This document shows, one piece after another, positions 1,966 through 43,296 of a stretch of DNA of 64,000 nucleotides. This DNA is from Pantanalinema sp. (lineage in GTDB: Bacteria; Cyanobacteriota; Sericytochromatia; S15B-MN24; UBA4093): positions 1-64,000 of the forward strand of contig DATNQI010000070.1 of the NCBI GenBank assembly GCA_036704125.1, written 5' to 3'. The position numbers were made by a program, and so were the translations under genes. How positions within the stretch are numbered: position 1 is the stretch's first letter; every line of letters begins with the position of its first letter. The notes beneath the pieces were generated by a model. It saw only the letters and a list, made by a program, of their open reading frames with translations. It was not told the origin of the DNA and searched no databases.

Positions 1966-3183
<1,218 letters not shown>

Positions 3184-3278: not shown

Positions 3279-3386
3279 TTCGCTCATCTTCCGAGAGTCA
3301 CCTCTCGCAGGATTTGGCACCGCACGCATCATCGCCGGTTGCCGGGCATCATCGGGCCAGTCCCTCCGCCTTCTCTTGATAAGCAA
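3279..3386 (-). ncRNA. SAM-I (S-box) riboswitch
   Basis: Read on the minus strand, the conserved SAM-I core is present in order: CTTATCAAGAG, then GGAGGGACTGGCCC, GATGA, CCCGGCAACC, GGTGCCAAATCC and AAGATGAG. The outer arms GCTTATC and GATGAGC can pair as P1. It lies directly upstream of metK and is followed by a terminator with a T tract, so it is an off-switch that binds S-adenosylmethionine. The open frame across it (3180-3386) is not a gene. Confidence 0.95.
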
Positions 3387-30572: not shown

Positions 30573-30804
30573 CAAGGAGGCAGGAACCGGTGTCCTGGTT
30601 CACAAGTAGATCAAGCCCCGAATGACCGCTTCAACACGACGTAGCCCCACCCAATTATTTTGTGGGTTCAAGCATCGTCCCGAGGATCACGAGAGCGTAC
30701 CGTAGCAAATCGCAAGCGATCGCCATGGCCAACTCCTGATTCCAAGGATGGCGATCATTTTGTTCTTTATCGTGTTTTTTGGCGAGATGGAGGCCATTAA
30801 TTGC
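30573..30804. other. intergenic boundary of the low-GC block
   Basis: No gene seen. Holds a weak hairpin (30584-30601), one HIP1 octamer (30716-30723) and the first AT-rich stretch. Composition changes here from about 70% GC to about half. Confidence 0.5.
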
Positions 30805-31572
30805 ATGAAGATTCTCAAGCTAGGCAGCGTTTTGCTGGTTCTTCTGACGATGGCAGTTGCTGTCGGCCCTCAAATAAAAAACGGTGAGGCGGCCTCTCTA
30901 CTGAGCACGCAACTTAATTCCCCTCAGGGAAACCTCGTCGAGCCTCTTTCTAACGGCCTTCTTCTCTCCATGACAAAGAGTGACATCATAGAACGTTTCG
31001 GTCCACCAACGTACGTCACGTGGGACGATGGAACCTTCGGCTATCGAGACTTCACCGTCATTTGCGGAGGCAAGAACAAGTCAATCTGGCACCTCACCCT
31101 GAAAGAAAACATCAAGCTCAATTCCGGCATTGGAATCGGCAGCGGAATGAACGAGGTCATGAAAACATTCAACCACAAATACGACTTCATCTACGATCAA
31201 TACCATCTCATCTTTTCTTACGCAGGAGATCAGGTCAGCGGAATCAAGATCGACCCTGTAAATGACGGTTTTGCACCCTATTCTGGAAAGGGATCTGCTG
31301 CGGCGCAAGCCACTGTCGGTCGTTCCGCCTTCGTTGGGCTGTGGTATGGCACCGCATCGACCGTAGGAACCATCGACATTCGTCCGGATGGCACCTACGT
31401 ATACAACGGCAATGGTAACGGTACTTATGCGGTGAACGGAAACATCATTACCTTTACGGGACCTCTCTCTGCTTGGGATGGGGGGCGCGCGACCCTCGAC
31501 GGGGGGAACCTGGTCTTTTACTGGCGGAACAAAAACGGCTCGAAAAATTGGTTTACATTCGCCAAGGAATAA
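30805..31572 (+). CDS. secreted hypothetical protein with SmpA-like and beta-rich parts
   Basis: The 255-residue protein starts with a signal peptide (MKILKLGSVLLVLLTMAVAV). Residues about 45-140 contain SMTKSDIIERFGPPTYVTWD, which looks like the BamE/SmpA-type fold start (GMT...V...GxP). The C-terminal 75 residues form an independent beta-rich unit with WYGTASTVGTIDIRPDGTY. No enzyme motif. An ATG at 30748 is in frame, but the signal peptide favours 30805, with TGGAGG eleven bases upstream. Codon use and GC are below those of the core genes. A hairpin CCCCCG...CGGGGG follows at 31573-31594. Confidence 0.65.
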   Translation: MKILKLGSVLLVLLTMAVAVGPQIKNGEAASLLSTQLNSPQGNLVEPLSNGLLLSMTKSDIIERFGPPTYVTWDDGTFGYRDFTVICGGKNKSIWHLTLKENIKLNSGIGIGSGMNEVMKTFNHKYDFIYDQYHLIFSYAGDQVSGIKIDPVNDGFAPYSGKGSAAAQATVGRSAFVGLWYGTASTVGTIDIRPDGTYVYNGNGNGTYAVNGNIITFTGPLSAWDGGRATLDGGNLVFYWRNKNGSKNWFTFAKE

Positions 31573-31594
31573 CCCCCGATGCTTGTTCCGGGGG
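31573..31594 (+). terminator. weak terminator hairpin
   Basis: CCCCCG, ten-base loop, CGGGGG directly after the stop codon, without T tract. Confidence 0.35.
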
Positions 31595-31873
31595 CGCGGA
31601 CCCCGTGCAACGCGAGGTCGAGCCGCCGAGGATCCCGGCCTTCCTCGTCTTGCCTCGTCGCTCGGCCGTTGTGCGCACCATCGCTCGGCTCGAACGCCAC
31701 CCATTTCCGGCCGACAGCCACGGCGAGCTCCCGGCGGAAGGCGTCGAGCCGCAGCATCCCTCACTATTCTGCGCTCTTGAGTGCTGCGAAGTCTTGATTG
31801 AGGCTTGAATCCCGGATTCAAGAATGATGGGATGGTTTCACTACAGAACGGCTTCAGTTGATGTGAGGGGGCC
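31573..31873. other. intergenic stretch without a credible gene
   Basis: Bases 31595-31770 are GC-rich with short open frames on both strands that lack ribosome sites and recognisable products; they may be a gene remnant. A perfect inverted repeat CTTGAATCC-C-GGATTCAAG lies at 31804-31822, 52 bases before the next gene, and could be an operator or short hairpin. Confidence 0.5.
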
Positions 31874-32557
31874 ATGGCAATCGATCAAAAGGTCGCCCTT
31901 TATACCTTGCTCTTTGTGGTGCCAGGTTTCATCTTGTCCTGGATCATCTCGCTCTTTGTCTCGAACCGCACCAAGGATGTCTCCCAGCTGCTGATCCAGT
32001 ATCTGAGCTTGACGTCATTGAACTACGCCGTGTGGTCGTGGTTATTGGTTTTACTGGCAAACAAACCCACCATCTGGCTTTGGGGCCATGGATCCGTCAT
32101 TGCGCTCAGCGTGTTTTTCATCATGTTCGTTAGTCCGGTCGCTATTGGGCTATTGATCGGGAACCTGATCGTTCGCAATCGAAAAGGTCCTCTCTGGCGC
32201 GCGATCGGTTTCAATCCCAACATCCTGTTCCCGGTGGGTTGGGACTACAAGTTCAATCAACTGGCCCAGGACAACCAAGCCGCTTTCCTGAAGGTCATCT
32301 TGACCGATGGTGGGGTGGTGGGCGGTGCTTTCTCGGGCCGCTCCTTCGCCTCTACCGACCCGGCGGAACGGGATCTCGTGCTCGAAGAAGCTTATCGCTA
32401 TGACGGTGAGCGCTGGCATCCGGTTCCAAACAGTGCCGGCATGTGGGTTCGGGGAGACCGAATCGCGGCTGTCGAGTTCGTCTTCGACAGCAAGGAGGAG
32501 CCTCATGTCCAAGAAACCGCTCATCCAGATCGAAAACCGCCGGTACTCAATCAGTAG
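31874..32557 (+). CDS. DUF6338 family membrane protein
   Basis: The 227-residue protein has three or four membrane segments in the first 100 residues (VVPGFILSWIISLF, NYAVWSWLLVLL, LSVFFIMFVSPVAIGLLIG). A soluble domain with WDYKFNQL, TDGGVVGGAFSGRSFAS and DLVLEEAYRYDGERWHPV follows. This layout and these motifs match DUF6338 as I know it. The role is unknown; the family often sits in accessory regions. The start ATG at 31874 follows GTGAGGGGGCC. Its 3' end overlaps the small gene at 32505. A decayed second copy lies at 33440-33705. Confidence 0.75.
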   Translation: MAIDQKVALYTLLFVVPGFILSWIISLFVSNRTKDVSQLLIQYLSLTSLNYAVWSWLLVLLANKPTIWLWGHGSVIALSVFFIMFVSPVAIGLLIGNLIVRNRKGPLWRAIGFNPNILFPVGWDYKFNQLAQDNQAAFLKVILTDGGVVGGAFSGRSFASTDPAERDLVLEEAYRYDGERWHPVPNSAGMWVRGDRIAAVEFVFDSKEEPHVQETAHPDRKPPVLNQ

Positions 32558-32741
32558 GTCTCCCGGTTTCAAGGGCGGGAGCCTCATGACGCATGCCACC
32601 CTTCCTGAACGAGATCTCTCTGCAACAAACGAGTGTCTTCAGCGTCAACTGGGTATCCAGCCTGATAACAATCACCCCTTCAATGGCACGCCAGAAGGCG
32701 GACCCAGCATCTATTACGACGGTCCCAAGCGAAAGCCGTAG
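32505..32741 (+). CDS. small protein overlapping the DUF6338 gene
   Basis: A 78-residue protein beginning MSKKPLIQIENRRYSISRSP and ending GPSIYYDGPKRKP. It overlaps the end of the DUF6338 gene by 53 bases in another frame and has a perfect ribosome site (AAGGAGGAG, 32491-32499). Basic, no membrane segment. The tight overlap suggests that it works with the DUF6338 protein. I do not recognise the family. Confidence 0.65.
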   Translation: MSKKPLIQIENRRYSISRSPGFKGGSLMTHATLPERDLSATNECLQRQLGIQPDNNHPFNGTPEGGPSIYYDGPKRKP

Positions 32742-32883
32742 CAAGGGATGGGCCAGGCGGCGATTCCTCACACCGCTCCTGCTTGGCGTATGACACGAGA
32801 AAAATCACTCAAATAAACCTCAGTCAGCGTGCACCAATTTGGTTGGATCGCCATGCGCTTGATTGGCGAGAAAGGGGGAAATG

Positions 32884-33438
32884 ATGCGAACGAGGGATGC
32901 ACTTCTCGGCCTATCGCTCAGCTTGCTTGTCGTCGGCTGTCCCCAGCAGTCGACGGTCCCCTCGCAGGCCGATAACGCCGGAGGCGCCACGGCACACAGC
33001 AACTCTTCTCGAAGCGCCAGCTTCATCAACACGACCAGGCAATCGCTGCTTCGCCTCTGGAACGAGCCGGACCCAGAGGGCGAAGTGAAATCCATCCGGT
33101 TTGGCATCGACGATGCGCGCGACCAGAACGCCACGCCCTTCGACCAAGCGCTTGCGGGCACCTGGGAGCTCTATCAGCTCGGCGACAGCGAGACGCGCCC
33201 TTTCGGCATTCTGCGCATCACCTCGGACGGCGCGTTCAACTACAGCTCCTACGAGGGCAAGATGATGTACGCCGTCCCTCGCAGGTACCGTGACGACCGA
33301 TCCACCTACTGGCACTTCGGCGGCGGACTCCTGGACAACTTCTACGCGCGTTCGGGCTACAACACCAACGGCGTTCCCATCCTCCGTATCTACTCCGCGA
33401 ACAAGAATAGAATGTCCGGTTTCGGAGTTCCCCGTTAG
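32884..33438 (+). CDS. hypothetical lipoprotein
   Basis: The 184-residue protein has a lipobox VVGC (Cys about residue 17) and a Ser/Ala-rich linker. Its beta-rich C-terminal domain contains LAGTWELYQLGDSE and ILRITSDGAFNYSSYEGK. This resembles the beta unit of the protein at 30805-31572. No enzyme motif. ATGs at 32863, 32881 and 32884 are in frame; AAGGGGGA (32872-32879) favours 32884. GC is mixed, rising within the gene. Confidence 0.6.
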   Translation: MRTRDALLGLSLSLLVVGCPQQSTVPSQADNAGGATAHSNSSRSASFINTTRQSLLRLWNEPDPEGEVKSIRFGIDDARDQNATPFDQALAGTWELYQLGDSETRPFGILRITSDGAFNYSSYEGKMMYAVPRRYRDDRSTYWHFGGGLLDNFYARSGYNTNGVPILRIYSANKNRMSGFGVPR

Positions 33439-33439
33439 C

Positions 33440-33705
33440 GCTTCAAGGTGGTGTGGTATTCGCGCTTCATCTTCTTGGCCCCTCAAAGGGCGGCGAGACC
33501 TACGACCGTCGAAAAAATGTCTCCCTGCTTCTGAAGCAATACCTGTGCATGGGCTCCCATAACAACGCCTCATGGTCGTGGTTGCTGGTCTTGCTTGCCT
33601 ATTAACCCGCCGTCTACTCCTAGGGTCGGATCTGCTGTGGCAATCTGCGCATTTTTCACGTTAGGCTGCCCAGATCTGGCCTATTGATTGGATGACCGTG
33701 TCCCG
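33440..33705 (+). pseudogene. decayed copy of the DUF6338 gene
   Basis: This stretch aligns with the start of the intact DUF6338 gene (about 31910-32180). In one frame, AAA AAT GTC at 33514 onwards reads KNVSLLLKQYLCMGSHNNAS and continues WSWLLVLLAY then stop. The intact gene reads KDVSQLLIQYLSLTSLNYAVWSWLLVLLANKP. Further along, CCTATTGATTGG matches the intact GGCTATTGATCGG. Stops, small deletions and a lost 3' part show it is dead. It lies after a lipoprotein gene, just as the intact copy lies after a secreted protein gene. Confidence 0.75.
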
Positions 33706-34118
33706 CCTATCACCGTAGTGCTGCGTGGTTCAAGGCTCACGTCATGCTGAAGCGCTTCGACCGGATGCGGGCTCACCGGGTCCGTATCGGGATGCGCGAG
33801 TATTGGGTCATGTTTGCCTGAGCGTTGGATCCGCTCGGGAGACCAGGGCACGAACCAGGCAATCCCGCCGATTCTTGGTCTACCCCTACCCGATATGCCG
33901 AACTGTCAACGACCCGCCAAACCTCGAATCAATTCTTGAAATCAGGCCCATGAACGCTCTCAGGGCCCAATCGGAAAGGTCGCTAACGGATCGACCGTCA
34001 CCTTTCCAAGTCGATTCTGACTAATCGATCTATTGGGCAGTCACTTTACAAAAATCCGTCGCCTGATGGCATATTTTGATTGAGTGAATCCCTATTGATG
34101 GAGATGAGGGGGTAGTTC
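33706..34118. other. intergenic, no credible gene
   Basis: The frame from about 33720 to 33821 (ends REYWVMFA) has no start with ribosome site and is likely debris. The region from 33870 on is AT-richer and contains TTTACA (34044-34049) and other A/T runs that may hold the promoter of the next gene; no clear -10 pairs with it. Confidence 0.5.
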
Positions 34119-34529
34119 ATGCTGAGCAGCATTGTCCTGGCTGCCGGACTTCTCGCGAAAACCATTGATATCCCACTTCCCACCAAAAACGACGTCTTTC
34201 AAGAACTGGTTGGAGACGGCAAAAAAGTTTGGCATCACGTGGGGAGTAGAGTCTTTTGGGGACCAGGTGGTAATTGCAACAAATCAATACAATTTCGCCG
34301 TGATGGCACGTGTGAAATGCAAGCCTGCCTGGATGGCAAGCCGATAAAAACCCAGGGAAAGTGGATAATCGGAGCGAAGGGAGCTCTTGACTGGACCGTG
34401 CTGATAGATGGCAACCCCTACCTTGTTCAAGCTCGAAAGGACAGCAGAAGCGAATATTTGATCATCTCTAAACCAGCTCCAGCCGGGGGAAAGAATGTTG
34501 ACGAATTCTATAAGCACGAATCCCAATAG
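34119..34529 (+). CDS. small secreted hypothetical protein
   Basis: The 136-residue protein has a short signal peptide (MLSSIVLAAGLLA). The mature part is beta-rich with two Cys and the motif KSIQFRRDGTCEMQ, similar in style to the DGT hairpins of the two other secreted proteins of this block. It ends DEFYKHESQ. A start site AGGGGG lies eight bases upstream of the ATG. Low GC. Function unknown. Confidence 0.6.
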   Translation: MLSSIVLAAGLLAKTIDIPLPTKNDVFQELVGDGKKVWHHVGSRVFWGPGGNCNKSIQFRRDGTCEMQACLDGKPIKTQGKWIIGAKGALDWTVLIDGNPYLVQARKDSRSEYLIISKPAPAGGKNVDEFYKHESQ

Positions 34530-34543
34530 CTTTCACAAGAAAA

Positions 34544-35044
34544 ATGTGTATCGCCATGAGGAATGACCAACCAGATCCCCCGAAAATCGCTGATCCAGAC
34601 ATCATCAAGACCATCACCAGCCTCCTACCATCGTGTATCACGGTGCTTGGCATCCTCGTAGGGGTCTGGCAGTTCAACACTGCAAATCGCATCGCCGACG
34701 CTACCGAATTCAAGCGAAGATTTTGGCAAGAAAAGCTCGAAGTCTATCGTCATGCTGACACCATTGTCGGGGAAATAGCCGAAGCCTCATCGAATGGACT
34801 GAAGAAAAGCACGATTCGAAAGAAAGCCAAAGAGTTCGATACGCTCTACTTTGGTTTGATTCCATTCATCCAAACCAGAGAAGACCAGAAGGTACGAGAG
34901 GCAGGCGAGGCACTTCACCGGGAACTCAAACACTACCTCCTCTTTAGCGGAAGTAGTACCGAAAGGATAGAAACGCTCGCGATAAATTTTGTGAAAGCCA
35001 CCCATGAGTCATTGATGACAACCTGGAAGGAGGTAAAGGACTAA
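34544..35044 (+). CDS. single-span membrane protein, hypothetical
   Basis: The 166-residue protein has one membrane segment around residues 26-45 (LPSCITVLGILVGVWQF). Before it is a short Pro/Asp-rich N-terminus, after it a helical cytoplasmic domain with FKRRFWQEKLEVYRHADTI. This arrangement resembles small sensor-type proteins of accessory regions that I cannot name. It lies 14 bases after the previous gene. An alternative start at 34556 is possible. GC about 50% (30 of 60 bases in 34561-34620). Confidence 0.6.
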   Translation: MCIAMRNDQPDPPKIADPDIIKTITSLLPSCITVLGILVGVWQFNTANRIADATEFKRRFWQEKLEVYRHADTIVGEIAEASSNGLKKSTIRKKAKEFDTLYFGLIPFIQTREDQKVREAGEALHRELKHYLLFSGSSTERIETLAINFVKATHESLMTTWKEVKD

Positions 35045-36533: not shown

Positions 36534-37799
36534 ATGAAGCAACTCTTGAAAGCGACCCTCCTCTGGTCCGCCCTCGCCTGGGGCGCGAGCGCCGCGCCCG
36601 TCTCGCTCGACGCCCTCGTCCGGCAGGCGCTCGATCAGCACCCCGGCCTGCAGTCGGCCCGCCAGAGCGCCGCCGCCCAGGCCGAGCGGGTGGGAATCGC
36701 CCAGGCCCCCAACCTGCCCCAGGTCAACCTCAACTCCAGCCTGCAGTACAGCACCAACCTCTCCAACGCCCAGACGAGCGCCCAGCCCTTCGCCCTCTCC
36801 ACGGCGGGGCTCTCGCTCAGGCAGCAGCTCTTCGACTTCGGCAAGACCGACGCCGAGGTCGCGATCGCCCGCGCCAACGCCGACATCGGCGCGCTCTCGG
36901 CCGAGAGCCAGGCCGTCGACATCGCCTACGGCGTCCGGCAGGCCTACCTCCAGTGGGTGCGCGCCTCGAAGATCGAGCTTCAGGCCCGCACCCGCCTCGA
37001 CTCCGCCTCGCGGCTGCAAGCCCAGGCCGAGGCCTTCTGGAAGGCGGGCAAGCGATCCAGGATCGACGCGACCCGCGCCGCGGCGAGCCTCGCCCAGGCC
37101 CGCGCCGAGCTGATCGCGGCCCACACCGGCACCGAGCAGGCCCAGCGCGCCCTGAGCGCCGCGGTCGGGCAGGATGCCCCCGTCTCGGTGGCGAGCGCCT
37201 TCCCGCCCCTTCCCGCCGAGGCGACGCAGCCCCTTTCGGCCCTCGAGCAGGCGGCCCTCGACCGGCACCCCGCCCTCCAGTCGAGCGCCGTGCGCCGGCT
37301 GCGCGCGGACGCCACCCTGCGCTCGGCCGAGAAGGCCAACCTGCCCGACGTCAACCTCGACGTCAACTACGGCGTGCGCGCCCGCGACCTGACGCCGGGC
37401 CAGAACTGGACGGCGGGGGTCGGCTTCACCATGCCCCTCTTCAACGGCTTCTCGAGCGATCGCCAGCGCGCGGCGGCGGGCTCCGAGCTCGCCGGGGCCG
37501 AGGCCGCCGGCCGCGACCAGGCCCTCCAGGTCCGCGCGGCCCTTCAGCGGGCCTACCTCGCCCTTTCCGGCACGCGCGATCGCCTGCCCGCCTCCGAGGC
37601 GTCGCTCCGAAGCGCCAGGGAGAACCTTGCCCTTGCCGAGGGCCGCTACCAGGCGGGCGTCGGCTCGATCATCGAGGTGAGCGACGCCCAGGCCCTCCTG
37701 GCGAGCGCCGAAAGCGAGCTCGTCCGCGCCCAGACCGACTACCACCTGGCCGCCGCAGACCTCCTGCGCGCCGCCGGCCTCACGGGGATTTCGAAATGA
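36534..37799 (+). CDS. TolC-family outer-membrane efflux protein
   Basis: The 421-residue protein has a signal peptide (to GASA) and the TolC/OEP pattern: two long helical halves with repeated AQAxR/LxxA heptads and strand segments such as LNSSLQYSTNLSN and VNLDVNYGVRARDLTPGQNW followed by GVGFTMPLFNGF. It forms the exit duct of a tripartite pump. It is the first gene of the pump operon; its stop overlaps the ATG of the adaptor gene (ATGA). The ribosome site is weak (AGAAAG). Confidence 0.92.
   Translation: MKQLLKATLLWSALAWGASAAPVSLDALVRQALDQHPGLQSARQSAAAQAERVGIAQAPNLPQVNLNSSLQYSTNLSNAQTSAQPFALSTAGLSLRQQLFDFGKTDAEVAIARANADIGALSAESQAVDIAYGVRQAYLQWVRASKIELQARTRLDSASRLQAQAEAFWKAGKRSRIDATRAAASLAQARAELIAAHTGTEQAQRALSAAVGQDAPVSVASAFPPLPAEATQPLSALEQAALDRHPALQSSAVRRLRADATLRSAEKANLPDVNLDVNYGVRARDLTPGQNWTAGVGFTMPLFNGFSSDRQRAAAGSELAGAEAAGRDQALQVRAALQRAYLALSGTRDRLPASEASLRSARENLALAEGRYQAGVGSIIEVSDAQALLASAESELVRAQTDYHLAAADLLRAAGLTGISK

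Positions 37800-39029: not shown

Positions 39030-39043
<14 letters not shown>
37796..39043 (+). CDS. RND efflux periplasmic adaptor lipoprotein
   Basis: The 415-residue protein has a lipobox IAGC (Cys about residue 36). It shows the membrane-fusion layout: a barrel/lipoyl part (LTGTLAADRQVAIAPRVSG, VKKGQPLARLDDAEL), a helical hairpin of about 100 residues, the second lipoyl half (VVAPMSGVVGARLLEPGAI) and a C-terminal beta domain. The tail is Gly/Lys-rich. It overlaps tolC upstream by 4 bases and the RND gene downstream by 14 bases. Confidence 0.93.
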
Positions 39044-42125
<3,082 letters not shown>

Positions 42126-42130
42126 TGGAA

Positions 42131-42185
42131 GCAAACTTGCCTTCCAAGCAAGCTGTTGCGCGTTCGAGTCGCGTCGCCCGCTCCA
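42131..42185 (+). pseudogene. 3' fragment of tRNA-Gly(TCC)
   Basis: Anticodon arm CTTGC-CTTCCAA-GCAAG (42136-42152, anticodon TCC), variable loop CTGTT, T arm GCGCG-TTCGAGT-CGCGT (42158-42174), acceptor 3' strand CGCCCGC, then T and encoded CCA (42183-42185). Each matches tRNA-Gly. The 5' acceptor strand GCGGGCG and a regular D arm are missing: the upstream bases are the end of the RND gene, whose stop is 42123-42125. So this is a 3' half only, as left at the far end of an element that integrated into a tRNA gene. It should not be functional. Confidence 0.8.
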
Positions 42186-42191
42186 TCACAA

Positions 42192-42220
42192 AGCCCTCGG
42201 CCTGGTGGCCGAGGGCTTTT
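42192..42220 (+). terminator. strong intrinsic terminator
   Basis: Perfect 11-base arms AGCCCTCGGCC and GGCCGAGGGCT, loop TGGT, followed by TTT. It probably ended the original tRNA transcript and now ends the pump operon. Confidence 0.85.
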
Positions 42221-42405
42221 GCCATACGCCACTACACGCTTCAAAACGTGAAACCAATGAAACAGATGAAACGAGTTTTGTTTCATCGGGCTGGCAACAG
42301 GTAGGTGTAGCGTTCCCGGACATGGGTGAGAGTCACCCCCCATTTCGGCCTTTGCTCGGTGCTCTCAACATTTCAACTTTTCAACTTCAGACTCGCCCGC
42401 ACCGC
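42221..42405. other. intergenic with small repeats
   Basis: No gene seen. TGAAAC occurs three times with a 9-base period (42249-42272), and GATGAAAC-GAGTTTT-GTTTCATC (42265-42287) is an 8-bp hairpin. The rest is featureless. Confidence 0.5.
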
Positions 42406-42434: not shown

Positions 42435-42444
42435 TGCATCATCA

Positions 42445-42459
42445 TGAGAATGATTCTCA
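42445..42459. promoter_or_regulatory. Fur-type operator TGAGAATGATTCTCA
   Basis: A perfect 7-1-7 inverted repeat, close to the Fur consensus TGATAATNATTATCA. It lies directly after the predicted transcription start, so a bound repressor would block the methyltransferase gene. PerR or Zur boxes have the same shape and cannot be excluded. Confidence 0.75.
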
Positions 42460-42492
42460 TTTGCAGACACTTCCAGTGAGGAGGCTTGCCCC

Positions 42493-43296
42493 ATGTCCAC
42501 GTTCGACTTGCCGTTTCCCGCCGAGGGGCTCGACCCCGCCAAGATGCCCGGGCACTGGCTCCTGGCCCGCCTCGGCAAGCGCGTGCTTCGCCCCGGCGGC
42601 ATCGAGCTGACCCGGGAGATGCTGAGGGGGCTTGCGATCTATACCGACGACGACGTGGTCGAGTTCGCCCCCGGCCTGGGCACGACCGCCCGGCTGACGC
42701 TGCAGCTCTCCCCGCGCAGCTACACGGCGATCGACCGGGACGAGGGGGCCGTCGCCCAGGTGCAATCAATCCTGAAGGGGCCCCTGCAGCGCTGCCGGAT
42801 CGGACTGGCCCATGAGACCGGCCTTCCCTCTTCGTCGGCCACGGTCGTGTACGGCGAGGCGATGCTCACGATGCTGACGCCGCAGATGAAGCGCCAGACG
42901 GTGCGTGAGGCGTTCCGCTGCTTGAGTTCCGGTGGGCGCTACGGCCTTCACGAGATGACCCTCGTGCCCGACGACCTGAGCGACGAGCAGAAGGACGAGA
43001 TCCAGCGAGAGCTTTCCGCGGTCATCCGCGTGGGGGCGCGCCCCCTGACCCAGCAGGAGTGGCGCGAGCTTCTCGAATCCGAGGGTTTCATCATCGAGCG
43101 GTGCGCCACGGCCCCCATGCACCTGCTCAAGACCGTTCGGCTCATTCAGGACGAGGGGCTCGGGGGGGCCCTGCGGATCGCCTGGAACACGCTCAAGGAT
43201 CCCGTGGCCCTCAAGCGGGTCCTCGACATGCGCAAGGTGTTCCTCAAGTACGAGGCGCAGCTCGGCGCGATGGCCCTCGTCGCCAGGAAGCCCTGA
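42493..43296 (+). CDS. class I SAM-dependent methyltransferase, metal-regulated
   Basis: The 267-residue protein has the Rossmann methyltransferase motif VVEFAPGLGTTARLTLQL (residues about 55-72), the acidic motif II AIDRDEGA and a later LSSGGRYGLHEMTL. The N-terminal MPGHWLLARLGKRVLRPGG is a family mark. The substrate is not known. The start ATG at 42493 follows GAGGAGG (42478-42484). It is a single gene under a strong promoter with a Fur-type box, so it should be made when iron (or the cognate metal) is low. Confidence 0.85.
   Translation: MSTFDLPFPAEGLDPAKMPGHWLLARLGKRVLRPGGIELTREMLRGLAIYTDDDVVEFAPGLGTTARLTLQLSPRSYTAIDRDEGAVAQVQSILKGPLQRCRIGLAHETGLPSSSATVVYGEAMLTMLTPQMKRQTVREAFRCLSSGGRYGLHEMTLVPDDLSDEQKDEIQRELSAVIRVGARPLTQQEWRELLESEGFIIERCATAPMHLLKTVRLIQDEGLGGALRIAWNTLKDPVALKRVLDMRKVFLKYEAQLGAMALVARKP

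Follow-up and report, generated by a model that had tools for sequence, protein, structure and literature searches.

Does a piece of a tRNA gene lying directly behind an efflux pump operon identify that operon as part of an integrated element? This question is raised by a stretch of 64,000 nucleotides from Pantanalinema sp. (the whole stretch analyzed is referred to here as the window), in which the gene for an RND efflux transporter of the AcrB family (39030..42125, plus strand; 1031 aa) ends 0–10 nt before a 3'-terminal piece of a tRNA-Gly(TCC) gene (42136..42185, plus strand). The fragment, recognizable from its paired stems, comprises the anticodon arm, the T arm, the acceptor 3' strand and CCA, and lies between the efflux pump and a SAM-dependent methyltransferase gene of native composition on its right (42493..43296, plus strand). 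A preliminary description had placed it at 42131-42185 and interpreted it as the scar at the far end of an element that had integrated into tRNA-Gly, with the DNA to the left, pump included, possibly belonging to that element. The fragment is real and its start was right within about 5 nt; as detailed below, the reading of the DNA on its left is not supported.

The identity of the fragment as a genuine tRNA-Gly(TCC) 3' part is clear from the sequence: the anticodon stem CTTGC/GCAAG carries the loop CTTCCAA, the T stem GCGCG/CGCGT carries the loop TTCGAGT, and the acceptor strand CGCCCGC is followed by TCCA. A covariance model, proposed earlier as a check on completeness, gives a nominally end-to-end match (Rfam RF00005, 42116-42182) whose 31.1 bits barely exceed the gathering score of 29; it is the weakest of the 41 tRNA matches in this genome, most of which score 47-74 bits. 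Yet the nominal 5' half of this match is indistinguishable from chance when compared with random DNA (p = 0.06 for 40-mers of the window, 0.16 for shuffles): it is mostly RND coding DNA through the TAA at 42123-42125, two of its acceptor pairs are mismatched, and the D stem is absent. ARAGORN called no tRNA over the window, and a complete cloverleaf was not obtained here with the tRNA finders; on this and the chance-level 5' half we reject a complete tRNA at this place. An ungapped match to the D loop (TGGAAGCAAA, 42126-42135; 6 of 10 positions identical, p about 0.02) is weaker than that of the fragment itself, and judged by this similarity the start of the relic may shift to 42126, right behind the RND stop codon.

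An intact tRNA-Gly(TCC) is encoded elsewhere in the same genome, behind tRNA-Pro(TGG) on contig C35 (C35:14252-14323, minus strand), as the preliminary description had expected. The two copies align as a block (42138..42297, plus strand, with C35:14138-14296, minus strand) of 161 columns at 82% identity; with E = 5.7e-37 against an intact locus of the same genome, the match of the fragment is not due to chance. The homology passes the CCA by about 110 bp, an extension to about 42297 that was missed when only the tRNA half was recognized. It crosses an intrinsic terminator (42190..42219, plus strand) with a 13-bp stem and a T run (folding energy -27.4 kcal/mol, z -5.8), homologous to the one behind the intact tRNA-Gly, and the stems of the two terminators differ by compensating changes. 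Beyond the terminator the homology covers TGAAAC boxes repeated every 9 bp (42248..42287, plus strand), an array that ends in the 8-7-8 inverted repeat GATGAAAC-GAGTTTT-GTTTCATC; over 27 bp of this array (GAAACAGATGAAACGAGTTTTGTTTCA) the window and C35 copies show no difference.

An identical 3' end, the second part of that expectation, was not found. Changes at 28:42, 50:64 and 52:62 are two-sided and preserve pairing, indicating that the 3' half diverged inside a working tRNA and that the 5' part was lost later; this source may have been a paralogue or, alternatively, an element whose integration restores tRNA-Gly. At 28:42 and 52:62 the fragment is unlike every tRNA-Gly(TCC) of the relatives seen, and these pairs look derived in the fragment. 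Its T stem GCGCG/CGCGT is that of tRNA-Gly(CCC) of the same genome (C25:3070-3142) and was not seen in the tRNA-Gly(TCC) of relatives. A difference of 18% between the copies makes a recent common origin unlikely.

To which side of an attachment region such a fragment belongs can be read from the DNA behind it. In the one genome of the same family that was compared (G001), the tRNA genes are arranged as Pro(TGG)-Gly(TCC)-Arg(TCT)-His(GTG)-Arg(CCG), and tRNA-Arg(TCT) follows tRNA-Gly(TCC) at about 3-30 nt in G001, in G003 (same order as Pantanalinema sp.; the Arg sequence is seen at a contig end) and in G012, G013, G015, G016, and G017 (same class). In a further relative, G002, Arg(TCT)-His-Arg is retained and adjoins a Gly-type match, and several others have Gly alone; the arm of terminator and boxes is absent behind tRNA-Gly in the relatives. 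On C35 the genes beside tRNA-Pro are syntenic with G001 and Pro-Gly is present. Behind Gly stand the terminator and the boxes, then genes of low GC (0.46-0.47 vs about 0.67; DUF6228) and a transposase of the IS3 type. Beside this low-GC region, C35:9688-11211 encodes a 507-aa protein with a match to a PARP-type catalytic domain. In this draft assembly of 102 contigs, the only copy of Arg(TCT)-His found is at the extreme end of C49, a contig whose sequence stops within tRNA-Arg. The ancestral Pro-Gly-Arg-His operon has therefore been split right after Gly, and the Gly-Arg order in the relatives shows that DNA was inserted precisely downstream of tRNA-Gly in this lineage. Relatives at the level of family, order, and class thus supply the uninterrupted target for the intact C35 copy: in this lineage tRNA-Gly(TCC) was a site of insertion, and the terminator-plus-box segment is acquired, not ancestral. 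We infer that the acquired arm came with an integrating element.

After integration into a tRNA gene, an arm of the element follows the restored tRNA, whereas the former chromosomal neighbor comes after the displaced 3' fragment (PMC4383910). Behind the window fragment lies the arm, not tRNA-Arg(TCT), which is on C49, so that the fragment is of the tRNA-side type; an element would be expected on its right rather than its left, and the C35 insertion did not leave it as its far-end scar. The attachment-site reading of the preliminary description therefore stands with respect to the target, tRNA-Gly(TCC), given the split between Gly and Arg-His, and is not supported with respect to the side. No element genes were seen right of 42297, and a search for the displaced 5' half of tRNA-Gly in the window gave no convincing match. 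The window had been described as free of integrases, which we can extend: neither C35 nor the contig of the window (C70) encodes a tyrosine recombinase, the three PF00589 genes of the genome being on C29, C40, and C54. Those on C29 and C40 resemble Xer proteins in sequence. Synteny with G001 around the window, the methyltransferase, and the tRNA-Thr locus described below is too eroded to reveal an empty site.

The DNA left of the fragment has the composition of the host. Its GC content is about 0.70, and the GC3 of the pump, 0.97, is native. Besides the transporter, the operon encodes an outer-membrane efflux protein (36534..37799, plus strand) and a membrane-fusion-type protein (frame ending at 39043), and no direct repeats of a family resembling an attachment repeat were found bounding it. 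Within 42 kb left of the fragment are, among other housekeeping genes, those that we take from their sequence to be metK (1966-3183) and a D-Ala-D-Ala ligase-like gene (ddl), with a SAM riboswitch of 84 bits upstream of the former (3281-3385, minus strand). A low-GC block (30573-35044; GC 0.48-0.60 vs about 0.70) encodes small unknown proteins, one of them with DUF6338, and sits between a gamma-glutamyltranspeptidase gene and the pump operon; a search for phage-like genes in this block gave zero PHROG matches. Relatives of the RND protein, from Riflebacteria, Acidobacteria, Bacteroidales, and others, share mostly 30-47% identity; within the class the best reach 45% (G011 and G012) and the nearest relative, G001, only 35%. 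These patchy identities point to patchy inheritance of the pump, yet are uninformative on insertion. Given native composition, housekeeping genes, and the arm on the right-hand side of the fragment, the proposal that the left-hand DNA with its pump is an element is not supported; the tRNA fragment is no evidence for a foreign pump.

On the right, a Fur-box-like palindrome (ATGAGAATGATTCTCAT, 42444..42461, plus strand) precedes the methyltransferase gene, and a similar site precedes the orthologue in G001 (C14 near 529000), although the two loci are not syntenic. The TGAAAC array is absent upstream of this orthologue, which led us to reject a role for it in the methyltransferase promoter.

To trace the array, its 21-bp core was searched allowing up to three mismatches, giving two sites in this genome (both tRNA-Gly copies), one in G001, and one in the small, distant genome G019, the last with three mismatches. 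The G001 array (C1:214268-214288) is 100 bp downstream of tRNA-Thr(CGT), and the low-GC genes after it lack Pfam matches; low-GC genes thus stand behind the boxes both there and on C35. In a scan of 18 genomes of the class at up to two mismatches, with the reversed sequence as control, close matches occurred only behind the two tRNA-Gly copies and this tRNA-Thr; the remaining matches all had two mismatches, and the reversed control gave one match. Neither the array nor the tRNA fragment matched viral contigs, phages, or plasmids.

The attP and attL arms of tyrosine integrases carry arm-type direct repeats beside the core. The window resembles them in its short, regularly spaced direct repeats, which lie some 60-100 bp away from the 3' end of the tDNA, and differs in that no integrase is attached to the candidate arm. 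An integrase-bearing example is provided by the same genome: at C54:9762-10538, a tyrosine integrase gene (428-aa frame) lies about 160 bp behind tRNA-Met(CAT), separated from it by a terminator and CTGACTG direct repeats, with a serine-recombinase-like gene beyond; this locus is likely a tRNA-Met element, and its arm has the same layout as that in the window. By analogy with it, the integrase-arm-like TGAAAC array would be a set of putative arm sites. Known attP sites are about 250 bp long and include a tDNA fragment (PMC4383910). More tentatively, and rather against the balance of probability, the array and inverted repeat could mark a family of tRNA-targeting elements, as yet undescribed, within this bacterial family, with tRNA-Gly as target in Pantanalinema sp. 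and tRNA-Thr in G001, whose arms persist or move as orphans after the element is lost.

The reading to which we would give an even chance is that tRNA-Gly and element arm had a second copy in the window, now a truncated relic, which derived from another integration or from duplication of the C35 locus. Against it speak the lack of an integrase close to either copy and of element genes beyond 42297, the 18% divergence of the two copies, and the eroded synteny with G001. The relic is then probably what is left of the tRNA-side, element-proximal half of an attachment region whose element has been lost. Under this scheme an element would have integrated at tRNA-Gly, bringing the terminator and a box arm to which its integrase would bind; a second copy of tRNA-Gly and arm would have arisen by one of the two routes and lost its 5' part as the pump operon came to abut it; and the element would have disappeared, its relic terminator now serving the pump operon, which most likely ends at 42190..42219. 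It is possible, if somewhat doubtful, that no mobile element was involved: the fragment could be a plain decayed paralogue, a second tRNA-Gly(TCC) with a homologous terminator and downstream sites, from which a deletion next to the pump operon removed the 5' third, the boxes being some other conserved site. Divergence within a working tRNA, as seen from the pairing-preserving stem differences, would be expected of such a paralogue, and the T stem shared with tRNA-Gly(CCC) and the possible D-loop remnant at 42126 also speak for it, but the relatives have tRNA-Arg behind tRNA-Gly(TCC) in place of terminator and boxes, and the operon of this genome is broken exactly there, an order and a break that call for insertion.

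We consider it improbable that the fragment is a far-end (attR) scar of an element on the left that includes the pump, with the tRNA-Gly of C35 as the other end. With its beginning close to the anticodon stem, the 3' fragment fits the commonest class of tDNA crossovers (PMC4383910), an intact cognate tRNA with foreign-looking DNA behind it is present, and the low-GC block at 30573-35044 could be taken as part of such an element; against these stand the element-type arm in place of tRNA-Arg(TCT), the lack of an integrase, and the native metK, ddl, and pump genes. Very improbable is an unusual functional tRNA without a D stem, for which the Rfam score just above gathering and the fully paired anticodon and T arms could be cited: besides the mismatched acceptor pairs, the missing D stem and the overlap with the RND stop codon, its 5' half scores at chance level, ARAGORN does not call it, and an intact tRNA-Gly(TCC) is available.

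Among known systems, the relic of an element arm that we favor shares with Islander-type islands (PMC4383910) a 3' tDNA fragment truncated near the anticodon region, a cognate intact tRNA, and an insertion behind that intact tRNA. The definition of such islands includes a fragment and tRNA 2-200 kb apart in the same orientation, with a tyrosine integrase gene between them; here the copies are on different contigs with housekeeping genes on both sides, there is no integrase, and the downstream flank is of element type instead of ancestral. Like tRNA pseudogenes that are decayed duplicates, the relic is a partial, nonfunctional copy diverged from the intact gene, but unlike them it bears an acquired downstream arm that is missing from the tRNA-Gly loci of relatives. 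The locus is thus a case where a tRNA fragment could be misread as proof that the adjoining efflux pump is an island, and where comparison of the DNA downstream of the tRNA in relatives tells the attachment side and reverses the inference. For this poorly known lineage, the box array is a candidate handle for its mobile elements.
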